Source: Gemmobacter aquarius (GTDB taxonomy: Bacteria; Pseudomonadota; Alphaproteobacteria; Rhodobacterales; Rhodobacteraceae). From it: a stretch of DNA of 64,000 nt. Every line of letters begins with the position of its first letter. Position 1 is the first letter of the stretch. The translations under genes were made by a program, and so were the position numbers. The notes beneath the pieces are model-generated. The model saw only the letters and a program-made list of their open reading frames with translations. It did not search any database and had not been told where the DNA came from. The stretch spans positions 1 through 64,000 of the forward strand of contig NZ_CP028918.1 of NCBI RefSeq assembly GCF_003060865.1. Direction: 5' to 3'. This document shows positions 14,249 through 25,275 of the stretch, in pieces.

Positions 14249-14268
14249 AGGGCGACCCAAAAACCAAA

Positions 14269-14301
14269 CGGCGCCATGCAACAAATGCATGGCGCCGTTT
14301 T
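14269..14301. terminator. Bidirectional intrinsic terminator
   Basis: A perfect 12-bp stem, CGGCGCCATGCA (14269-14280) with TGCATGGCGCCG (14286-14297), has the loop ACAAA and TTTT after it. On the minus strand the same stem is followed by TTTGGTTTTT. It can end the rightward glycosyltransferase transcript and the leftward tRNA-Lys transcript. Confidence 0.85.
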
Positions 14302-19291: not shown

Positions 19292-19476
19292 GGCAAAGGC
19301 GCGTGCCTTTGCCATGCGGAGGAGGTGCCGCCACCAAGCCGTGTGCCCCAAGCACACGGCCAGCGCCCGCCCCGCCCATGGCGGGCGCTGGCCTATCGTC
19401 GTCTTGCGGGACGGCCGATACAGCCGCACTGCCGCGCACGGGCGGGGAAACGCGGGTCGCGTTTCCTGTTCCGCCC
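19292..19476 (+). repeat. Structured dispersed repeat, long form (copy A)
   Basis: Four hairpins in order: GGCAAAGGC/GCCTTTGCC around GCGT (19292-19313); CCGTGTGC/GCACACGG around CCCAA (19339-19359); a 14-bp stem GGCCAGCGCCCGCC/GGCGGGCGCTGGCC (19358-19393); and one around CGCG, GGT, CGCG between GGGCGG and CCGCCC (19440-19476). Copy B at 33205-33386 has the same four in the same order on the other strand. It fills most of the 296-bp gap upstream of nspC. Arg/Pro-rich frames inside it look spurious. Confidence 0.85.
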
Positions 19477-21900: not shown

Positions 21901-23113
<1,213 letters not shown>

Positions 23114-23165
23114 TCTTTACCAAGGGTTTCTAACGCCAGCGCCGCGGTCCGCCTGCGGTGCAACT

Positions 23166-23194
23166 CCCCGCCATGTCCATGGCGGGGTCTTTTT
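23166..23194 (+). terminator. Intrinsic terminator of ccrM
   Basis: Arms CCCCGCCATG (23166-23175) and CATGGCGGGG (23178-23187) form a stem followed by TCTTTTT. It lies 53 bp after the ccrM stop. Confidence 0.85.
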
Positions 23195-23249
23195 CGTTTG
23201 AAGGCGGGGCCATGCTCCATTGCGGGGACTATCCGTCTGCGTGGCGCAA

Positions 23250-23359
23250 GCGGAGTTTGACGCAAACTCCGCGCCGGAATTTGACGCAAATTCCGGGGCG
23301 TGGCGGTGGGGTCCGGTTTCTGCGTCAGAAACCGGCGCGAAATTTGCGTCAAATTTCGC
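23250..23359. repeat. Symmetric array of four 23-nt hairpins
   Basis: Four perfect 23-nt palindromic units lie at 23250-23272, 23274-23296, 23313-23335 and 23337-23359 (spacers 1, 16 and 1 bp). Each has a 9-bp stem and 5-nt centre. The left arms are GCGGAGTTT, CCGGAATTT, CCGGTTTCT and GCGAAATTT, each with its exact complement. The centres are GACGC in the first two and GCGTC in the last two, so the array is itself an inverted repeat. It sits between the convergent ccrM and DUF421 genes. Confidence 0.9.
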
Positions 23360-23361
23360 CG

Positions 23362-23811
23362 TCAGCGCGGGTCTTTGGGGATGATGCTAATCGCCCCGCC
23401 GATTTCCAGCACCGCGCAGTCGATCTGGTCTAACCGTTTCAATCCCTGTTTCTCGCGCGCGGATTGCAGGATGTCGGACACATCCACCCGTGCGCGGCGC
23501 AGGGCGCGGGTGTCGAGTTCGCCGCCCGATATCAGTACGGTCGGCGTGCCGTCGATGGCAAGGCCAAGCGCGGGCGACCATGCCTTGGCATAGGACAGGA
23601 CCACATCGGTCAGGGCGAGCGTGACGATGACGATTGCCGCCGTGGTGATGGAATAATCGTCGCCAAGCAGCGCCTGATCCGTGGTTTCCGCAACGATCAG
23701 CAGCAGGACAAAGTCAAACACGGTCACCTGCGCCAAGGTGCGCCGCCCCGCAAAGCGGGTGACGACCAGCAACACGAGATAGACCGAAACGGCGCGGATC
23801 ACGCTGTCCAT
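23362..23811 (-). CDS. DUF421 (YetF-like) membrane protein
   Basis: The 149-residue protein has three hydrophobic segments in the first 80 residues (YLVLLVVTRFAGRRTLAQVTVFDFVLLLIVAETT is typical of DUF421), then a small cytoplasmic domain with GTPTVLISGGELDTRALRRARVDVSDILQSAREKQG. The biochemical role of DUF421 is not established. Its ATG overlaps the previous stop by one base (TAATG), so it is coupled to the single-span protein gene upstream. It ends two bases after the hairpin array. Confidence 0.9.
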   Translation of the reverse strand: MDSVIRAVSVYLVLLVVTRFAGRRTLAQVTVFDFVLLLIVAETTDQALLGDDYSITTAAIVIVTLALTDVVLSYAKAWSPALGLAIDGTPTVLISGGELDTRALRRARVDVSDILQSAREKQGLKRLDQIDCAVLEIGGAISIIPKDPR

Positions 23812-24338: not shown

Positions 24339-24407
24339 GGCACTTTCCTTCGCCTTTCAACCCGTCGGGTCGGCTGATGTTCCTGTTGAGCCTTTGGTCC
24401 TTTTGCG

Positions 24408-24475
24408 GGTTCGGGCCGATTGCAGGTTCGGGCCGATTGCAGGTTCGGGCCGATTGAAGGTTCGGGCCGATTGCG
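24408..24475 (+). repeat. Four tandem copies of a 17-bp unit
   Basis: The unit GGTTCGGGCCGATTGCA starts at 24408, 24425, 24442 and 24459. The first two are identical and the last two differ only in the final bases (GAA, GCG). It lies 70 bp upstream of the leftward single-span protein gene. Confidence 0.95.
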
Positions 24476-24506
24476 CGTTAGGGATGTAACGGTTGTGCGA
24501 AAATAG

Positions 24507-24768: not shown

Positions 24769-25275
24769 ATGCGTAACATCATTCTCGCCTCGACCATCGC
24801 CATCGCTGCCCTGTCGGGTGTGGCCAATGCATCGTCCACCATCGTCGCTGCCGGGCCGGGCGATGTGCAACTGGCACAGATCGCCGGTGTGCAGCCGGGC
24901 AAATACAGCCGCGCCGAACTGCTGAACATCATCGACGCACGCTCGGAAAACGACGAACAGGCGTTGTCGTTCTACCTGTCGGGTGCCAACCGCGCTTCGG
25001 GGCAGGCGTCGGATGAAAGCCTTGCCCAACTGGCAGGCACGGCCGGTGTGGCGGCGGACGGGTATTCGGCGACCGAGTTGGCACGCCTGACCGATGCGCG
25101 CCGTGAAAACGACGCGTCGGCCGTGTCGTTCATCGTGAACCGTGCCGCCAAGGCACCGCTGCCTGCCGAAGCCGTGACCCCCGGCGAGGCGCAACTGGCC
25201 GCATTGGTCGGTGTCGATCCGGCCGACTACACGCTGGCCCAGCTGGTCGCCCTTCAGCCGCAAGCCGACGATTGA
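24769..25275 (+). CDS. Exported protein with three internal repeats
   Basis: The 168-residue protein has a signal peptide (residues 1-21, cleavage near NAS-S) and three copies of one motif: QLAQIAGVQPGKYSRAELLN followed by IIDARSENDEQALSFYL (34-70); LAQLAGTAGVAADGYSATEL followed by ARLTDARRENDASAVSFIV (85-123); and a shorter QLAALVGVDPADYTLAQLVA (142-161). There are no cysteines. I do not know the family. It is preceded by GAAAGGGAAA and a leader of about 200 bases. A 5'-proximal signal peptide and repeats suggest a small periplasmic adaptor. Confidence 0.8.
   Translation: MRNIILASTIAIAALSGVANASSTIVAAGPGDVQLAQIAGVQPGKYSRAELLNIIDARSENDEQALSFYLSGANRASGQASDESLAQLAGTAGVAADGYSATELARLTDARRENDASAVSFIVNRAAKAPLPAEAVTPGEAQLAALVGVDPADYTLAQLVALQPQADD

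Follow-up and report, generated by a model that had tools for sequence, protein, structure and literature searches.

We describe an array of four hairpins at positions 23250-23359 of the window, that is, of the whole 64,000-nucleotide stretch of Gemmobacter aquarius DNA analysed here. The explanation that we favour, and to which we would give an even chance, is that this array is one copy of a repetitive extragenic palindromic (REP)-like family of the Rhodobacteraceae (Paracoccaceae in the NCBI taxonomy), which sits at gene ends and, judged from sequence, would act as a bidirectional 3'-end element. The members of the family lie close to stop codons, present the same order of loops from either side, and carry two hairpins per side at a pitch of 24 nt. 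Their stems are almost perfectly paired despite the change of letters, and adjacent hairpins avoid identical stems. The family is often inherited in place, and is now and then gained or lost.

Structurally, the array consists of four perfect 23-nt palindromes with the loop orientation ++--, separated by gaps of 1, 16 and 1 nt, exactly as an earlier reading of the letters (the sequence-only reading) had described them. The 9-5-9 geometry proposed in that reading had to be redrawn, since the G and C of the central GACGC or GCGTC are also paired and each unit thus has 10 bp in its stem and 3 nt in its loop (ACG or CGT). The mirror symmetry it saw applies to the loop orientation and not to the stems: the outer stems are unlike (U1 GCGGAGTTT, U4 GCGAAATTT), and so are the inner ones (U2 CCGGAATTT, U3 CCGGTTTCT). 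The parts of the array are these:

23250..23272, plus strand: hairpin unit U1, loop ACG, stem GCGGAGTTTG
23274..23296, plus strand: hairpin unit U2, loop ACG, stem CCGGAATTTG
23297..23312, no strand: central spacer, 16 nt
23313..23335, minus strand: hairpin unit U3, inverted, loop CGT on the plus strand
23337..23359, minus strand: hairpin unit U4, inverted, loop CGT on the plus strand, ending 2 nt from the stop codon of a DUF421 gene

The 64-kb window holds no perfect 23-nt palindrome of this kind besides these four, and 10 first-order Markov shuffles of the window gave 0. Our own simple codon-usage gene caller, the source of the gene positions in this report, places no gene across the array, which agrees with the earlier view that no protein-coding frame explains it. 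A search of 22900-23700 against Rfam 15 returned nothing over the gathering threshold, with a top score of 28.5 bits against 89.

The core of the unit, TTTGACGCAAA, occurs in 82 copies in the 4.2-Mb genome, with 0 for the reversed control. All 82 copies lie on the 3.69-Mb contig C1 and none on the 0.51 Mb of the other contigs, and a covariance model of the unit gave 203 matches at E<=1, of which the 150 listed are likewise all on C1. The core sites and these 150 of the 203 model matches define 50 arrays with 198 units on the chromosome, 40 of them exact ++-- quartets; arrays of weaker units may be missing from this set. As palindromes of 20-40 nt in many extragenic copies, the units fall under a broad definition of REP-like elements. 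The pitch is 24 nt in 95 of the 96 tandem pairs of this genome, and the loop orientation agrees in all 96 of them and in 187 of 191 in relatives. The central gap measures 14-27 nt in 31 of the 40 quartets (full range 7-95), and the loop variants of the family include GGCGC, GACAC, CACGA and TACGA. By our main rule 50 of 50 arrays are intergenic; a stricter rule (44 arrays) put one, L032, inside a gene call. Some arrays are irregular. The left half of L043 in this genome is doubled, and in Gemmobacter straminiformis (L127:7205-7650) about four successive copies of a half-array plus spacer may represent a stage in the growth of an array.

The sequence-only reading held that structure is kept rather than sequence, a view that the covariation found here supports. 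The 152 units of this genome examined for the purpose show 20 different upper stems. In an alignment of 74 distinct units (A2), 97.3% of the cells pair and the covariation score is 0.605 vs 0.142 when shuffled, and in a two-hairpin alignment (A3) all 20 stem pairs vary on both sides. Both alignments were chosen for pairing, and a core-anchored test is free of that choice: here all five outer pairs examined form at 75 of 82 sites, the second base pair is C-G at 79 and the third G-C at 78 of the 82, and the upper stems are AT-rich. The same second and third pairs are present in all 74 units of A2, though selection demanded them.

Orthologous arrays agree with this picture. For 26 of 44 arrays of this genome a flanking gene has, on our reading, a relative within 250 nt of an array in other species, this comparison being a partial sample of 120 stretches. 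A set of 44 locus pairs around 20 arrays was drawn from this comparison, and the 26 pairs around 16 arrays with a quartet on both sides were counted. Quartets were matched automatically by taking the one closest to a flank match, only units with at least 7 of 8 pairs were admitted, and the pairs are not independent, as several share an array of this genome. Across these, 44 of 104 units have altered stems (one base pair in 18, two in 14 and three in 12), 4 of 832 pairs are mismatched, and 60 units are identical vs 15.2 expected for unrelated ones. These arrays have therefore been handed down at their sites, with stems that change by whole base pairs.

What is new here is that neighbouring hairpins avoid identical stems, and that non-neighbours may match. 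Identical upper stems in adjacent units were found for U1-U2 in 1 of 48 arrays (6.7 expected), for U3-U4 in 0 of 48 (5.7) and for U2-U3 in 1 of 48 (7.4), against 5 of 40 (4.6), 7 of 40 (4.6) and 9 of 40 (7.2) for the non-neighbours U1-U4, U1-U3 and U2-U4. A permutation of stems within each array is unaffected by which stem types brought the arrays in. Permuted in this way, the 40 quartets of this genome show 1 adjacent identity vs 11.0 expected, which 0 of 20000 permutations reach, and 69 quartets of relatives show 4 vs 15.0 (P=5e-5). A pooled subset without the searched stem type has 0 neighbour identities in 26 (3.2 expected, P=0.024), and neighbours differing by one mismatch are also scarce (7 vs 14 expected). 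An identical tandem pair does occur in L037. As RNA, 94 of 95 tandem pairs fold as two separate hairpins, vs a mean of 84 (77 to 89 over 20 shuffles) when partners are exchanged. A long-range pairing of U1 with U4 and of U2 with U3 was considered as the kept structure and rejected: the RNA fold prefers it, but stem matches at these positions (the 5 of 40 and 1 of 48 given above) are not above chance.

The arrays hug the ends of genes. Of 69 gene ends that point at an array from no more than 300 nt away, 54 are at most 28 nt from it, ten form a second group at 54-75 nt and five are farther; in ten of the 54 the stop codon falls inside the first hairpin, where the core has its TGA. The context of the arrays is convergent in 22 cases, tandem in 23 and divergent in 5, whereas gaps of 100 nt or more that lack an array, taken from these loci and the window, are convergent in 10, tandem in 52 and divergent in 49, so that convergent gaps are enriched over divergent ones (Fisher P=1.3e-8). 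T-tailed terminators follow 6 of 37 convergent gene ends with an array vs 20 of 45 without (P=0.0085).

Among relatives, the 18 other genomes of the genus contain 2 to 43 copies of TTTGACGCAAA, at least 7 in 16 of them (control at most 1), and in other genera this core is mostly near its control level. A scan of named genomes for GGAATTTGACGCAAATTCC gave at least 120 stretches. Of the 80 matches listed, 78 belong to Rhodobacteraceae going by their title or genus, and the NCBI taxonomy places several of the species named under Paragemmobacter, family Paracoccaceae; the two exceptions, a Hyphomonadaceae and a Eubacteriaceae metagenome-assembled genome, show a single palindrome each in the stretch viewed. 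The covariance models reach farther across the family, and their counts are lower bounds, with strict filters and at most 32 (one-hairpin), 15 (two-hairpin, family) or 16 (class) candidates scored per genome. At least 11 of 248 family genomes matched the one-hairpin model. At E<=1e-3 the two-hairpin model, which includes arrays of other genera, matched in at least 73 of 393 genera (74 of 394 family genomes). Of these genomes 54 have more than one match, in part from the two strands of a single place, and nine genomes saturate at 15 candidates. In a sample of 385 genomes of the class, three matched this model, all in the family, and none outside it at that candidate depth.

The pitch in other genera is 24 in 40 of 44 pairs, a figure partly biased by the two-hairpin model, which supplied most of these loci; those from the one-hairpin model and the GGAATTTGACGCAAATTCC scan have mostly 24, with some 23 and 25. 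Many loops there are unlike GACGC, with pitch and pairing kept, and a gene 3' end lies within 30 nt of the array in 30 of 44 loci, which partly overlap. A two-hairpin array of another genus (L267:1501-1547) follows a stop codon directly and takes up a large part of the space before the next gene, which is on the same strand; by eye, the two genes resemble fabD and fabG.

A bidirectional 3'-end element agrees best with the way the arrays are built, with their place at stop codons and their two-sidedness, and with the low number of T-tailed terminators where convergent genes end at an array. A transcript from either gene would fold two independent hairpins immediately behind the stop codon, and these would halt exonucleases working 3'-to-5' and contribute to setting the end of the mRNA. 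Convergent genes a short distance apart could then do without a T-tailed terminator. At a pitch of 24 nt one hairpin may stay folded while the terminating ribosome covers the first, and the unlike stems would keep the two hairpins of one side from pairing together. Two options offered by the sequence-only reading, a REP-like element and an RNA structured in either direction, are both compatible with such an element.

Several results weigh against this explanation. At tandem gene ends, terminators are not fewer with an array (8 of 19 vs 16 of 55, P=0.39). Four or more T in six follow only 8 of 396 hairpin ends, and this lack of a T-run rules out a classical intrinsic (rho-independent) terminator. 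At equilibrium, the RNA fold pairs units with one another in 40 of 40 quartets; any benefit of unlike neighbours must therefore act during transcription or on half arrays. In other genera neighbours differ in all 37 distinct pairs, which is not significant alone (1.6 identities expected, P=0.18). Selection on RNA of one strand only would favour G-U over A-C mismatches, and among 12 mismatches in 1552 pairs (194 units of this genome, filtered for at least 7 of 8 pairs) no G-U preference is seen, with 3 G-U vs 4 A-C. The absent preference is in line with pairing being required on either strand or in DNA. Lastly, the copy in the window is dispensable for its left-hand neighbour, ccrM, because that gene has its own terminator. 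The setting of this copy is as follows:

21989..23113, plus strand: ccrM DNA methyltransferase, convergent neighbour; PF01555 and RAMA, with CcrM as top NCBIfam match, under that model's cut-off
23166..23194, plus strand: T-tailed terminator of ccrM itself, outside the array; by eye also present after ccrM in congeners
23198..23359, no strand: stretch absent from the ccrM/DUF421 junction of three congeners, comprising the array and 52 nt to its left; extent by eye
23362..23811, minus strand: DUF421/YetF-domain gene, convergent neighbour with the array directly at its 3' end; PF04239, no NCBIfam match

The array does lie after ccrM, as was first reported, 136 nt past its stop at 23113; this is half of the setting, the other side being the convergent DUF421/YetF gene. 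A role as the ccrM terminator was rejected, as ccrM has a terminator of its own, in relatives too. In the 18 other genomes of the genus the unit finder sees no units within 600 nt after the ccrM match, a result read less surely for G001, where ccrM was matched in two pieces. Three congeners (G006, G009 and G016) have ccrM and DUF421 joined without an array: the terminator T-run is followed by CGTC and then by the end of DUF421. The junction in the window is about 162 nt longer, and by eye a CGT at 23195-23197 and at 23360-23362 flanks the extra stretch. Gain of the array in this lineage is the simpler reading; alternatively, the copy may have been lost elsewhere. The CGT on both sides may be due to chance. 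The 52 nt at 23198-23249 look like a decayed duplicate of the region around the ccrM terminator (repeats D3 and D4), as if the gain had been accompanied by a local duplication. The sequence-only reading had regarded absence from relatives as fatal to its proposal. At the ccrM site this absence is real, while the core and other arrays are present in relatives. As the core is found elsewhere in the genus and other arrays stand beside the same genes in other species, the family is real, and the ccrM copy was gained here or lost elsewhere.

Other repeats and hairpins were also noticed in the window. By eye, about four imperfect copies of a unit of about 20 nt around TTCGGGCCGATTGCAGG lie at 24403-24479, upstream of a gene at 24769. 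Long perfect hairpins occur at 14266-14300 (15-bp stem, 5-nt loop) and 19358-19393 (14-bp stem, 8-nt loop), by eye unrelated to the array in sequence.

The three congeners with the same two neighbours and no array, together with the CGT seen on both sides, also suit a non-autonomous mobile palindromic element, similar to REPINs (REP doublets forming hairpins) or miniature inverted-repeat transposable elements (MITEs). The ++-- quartet would be the transposed unit, its palindromes would persist because a trans-acting transposase requires hairpins folded in single strands, and sites behind stop codons would be the least harmful insertions. The dispersal of quartets of one design is in keeping with this, as is their head-to-head order, which is typical of REPINs and of bacterial interspersed mosaic elements (BIMEs). 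We nevertheless consider it unlikely. PF01797 (Y1_Tnp/RAYT, the REP-associated tyrosine transposase), the one transposase family searched, gave no match over the cut-off in 19 genomes of the genus including this one, which has no match at all; a single sub-threshold match was seen in G008. A RAYT-driven REPIN was rejected on this ground. The outer flanks carry GTAG in 4 and CGTC in 1 of 100 cases, so that most flanks show neither the GTAG tag of REPs and REPINs nor the CGTC tag. Furthermore, in the sample of stretches described above, 26 of 44 arrays have on our reading a counterpart near the same gene's relative in other species, and the 0.51 Mb outside C1 holds no core copy.

The palindromes could also be upheld by mutation and not by selection, with quasipalindrome template switching copying one arm onto the other and identical neighbours being lost by slippage or by clearing of long hairpins; the neighbour rule could arise in this way. 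Template switching is reported to make quasipalindromes perfect in Escherichia coli (PMC7202029), and it would account for the rarity of mismatched intermediates described above (4 of 832 and 12 of 1552 pairs, in units admitted with 7 or more of 8 pairs) and for wobble pairs not being favoured. Escape from hairpin cleavage has been offered as the reason for REP heterodimers (PMC3733652). Intermolecular switching, as described in PMC8604942, can invert the spacer, and against this form stands the agreement of loop orientation (96 of 96 here, 187 of 191 in relatives); the intramolecular form need not invert. As a whole this explanation appears quite unlikely, for it accounts neither for the location at stop codons nor for the quartet architecture, nor for the pitch of 24 nt shared between genera (40 of 44, partly model-biased).

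A DNA-level element between genes, such as a cruciform or a gyrase or nucleoid-protein site absorbing supercoils from convergent transcription, would suit the near-perfect Watson-Crick pairing valid on both strands, the AT-rich upper stems and the restriction of the core to C1 (82 of 82), yet is very unlikely, as the stems and, in other genera, the loops offer no fixed sequence to bind, and as it predicts neither the 23 tandem sites nor the stop-codon hugging at many of them. A sequence-specific protein site, the protein-binding array of the sequence-only reading, is not supported and was rejected, since the stems vary and in other genera the loops do too.

The family shares features with several known elements. 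REPs and BIMEs of E. coli are palindromic units of opposite orientation downstream of genes, involved in mRNA stabilisation; E. coli REPs have a conserved sequence and a RAYT, and BIMEs alternate unlike motifs. The present arrays also place palindromes of opposite orientation downstream of genes, but their stem sequence is free, their neighbours are mostly unlike and no RAYT passes the cut-off. REPINs with RAYT transposases are inverted hairpins with a spacer, dispersed in long-lasting populations; the array, in contrast, has four hairpins and not two, and, as noted, no RAYT over the cut-off in the 19 genomes. 'I-shaped' or tandem terminators are hairpins without a U-tail, and the arrays resemble them as tandem hairpins without a T-run behind stop codons. 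Such U-tail-less terminators are not known to form a family of repeats with a constant pitch, a loop polarity and symmetry of the two sides. A literature search over titles and abstract openings, with subscription papers and figures outside its scope, found no description of the array family in Rhodobacteraceae, and a search with four core sequences returned only three unrelated papers.

The nearest described kind is the CGTC-tagged REPs of Alphaproteobacteria (Di Nocera et al. 2013, PMC3733652), which share habits with the array family and not the tag. They are described as dispersed short palindromes with 8-9-bp stems and 4-5-nt loops, mostly in inverted dimers and of mixed stem types, for which the text gives no dedicated transposase. 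They sit near gene 3' ends, and in the two species diagrammed most REPs at convergent sites lie within 20 bp of both open reading frames. Beside the hairpin-cleavage account, the text of that study also notes the preference for unlike partners without an obvious explanation. CGTC families are reported there in all alphaproteobacterial orders; its text does not name Rhodobacter, Paracoccus or Dinoroseobacter, and its Figure 2 may list a Rhodobacterales family. The array family likewise has an inverted order, sites 3' of genes and no dedicated transposase found (only Y1_Tnp was searched). CGTC REPs, however, carry an unpaired CGTC tag at one end, a CCA-like tail and A-T pairs at the base of the stem (PMC3733652), whereas the array units have GACG/CGTC in the loop, C-G rather than A-T pairs at the base and no outer tag, and are organised as a ++-- quartet at 24-nt pitch. 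For REPs of E. coli, a block to exonucleases has been reported and, where the stop codon is no more than 15 nt away, also a stalling of ribosomes (PMC12306157). By its description alone, HRC-8-4 (PMC8632094) is comparable as a structured element confined to Rhodobacterales.

A bolder and more tentative proposal, which we regard as possible and no better, is that the family is a clade-specific, sequence-free and two-sided gene end, each side carrying two hairpins spaced at a 24-nt pitch. Selection would keep only the pairing, the pitch and the non-pairing of neighbours, and the two staggered hairpins would provide an mRNA end proof against ribosome and exonuclease for both converging genes. As a rule, REP families are identified from their sequence, and for many a transposase provides the explanation. 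The array family has no kept stem sequence and no RAYT over the cut-off, yet shows strong covariation, a fixed pitch, loop polarity and a quantitative neighbour rule. Additionally, the preference for unlike partners is directly testable here, as stems can be exchanged with loop, pitch and place held fixed. If the 3'-end role is true, an alphaproteobacterial family would end its convergent transcripts in a way of its own, in gaps too short for ordinary terminators.
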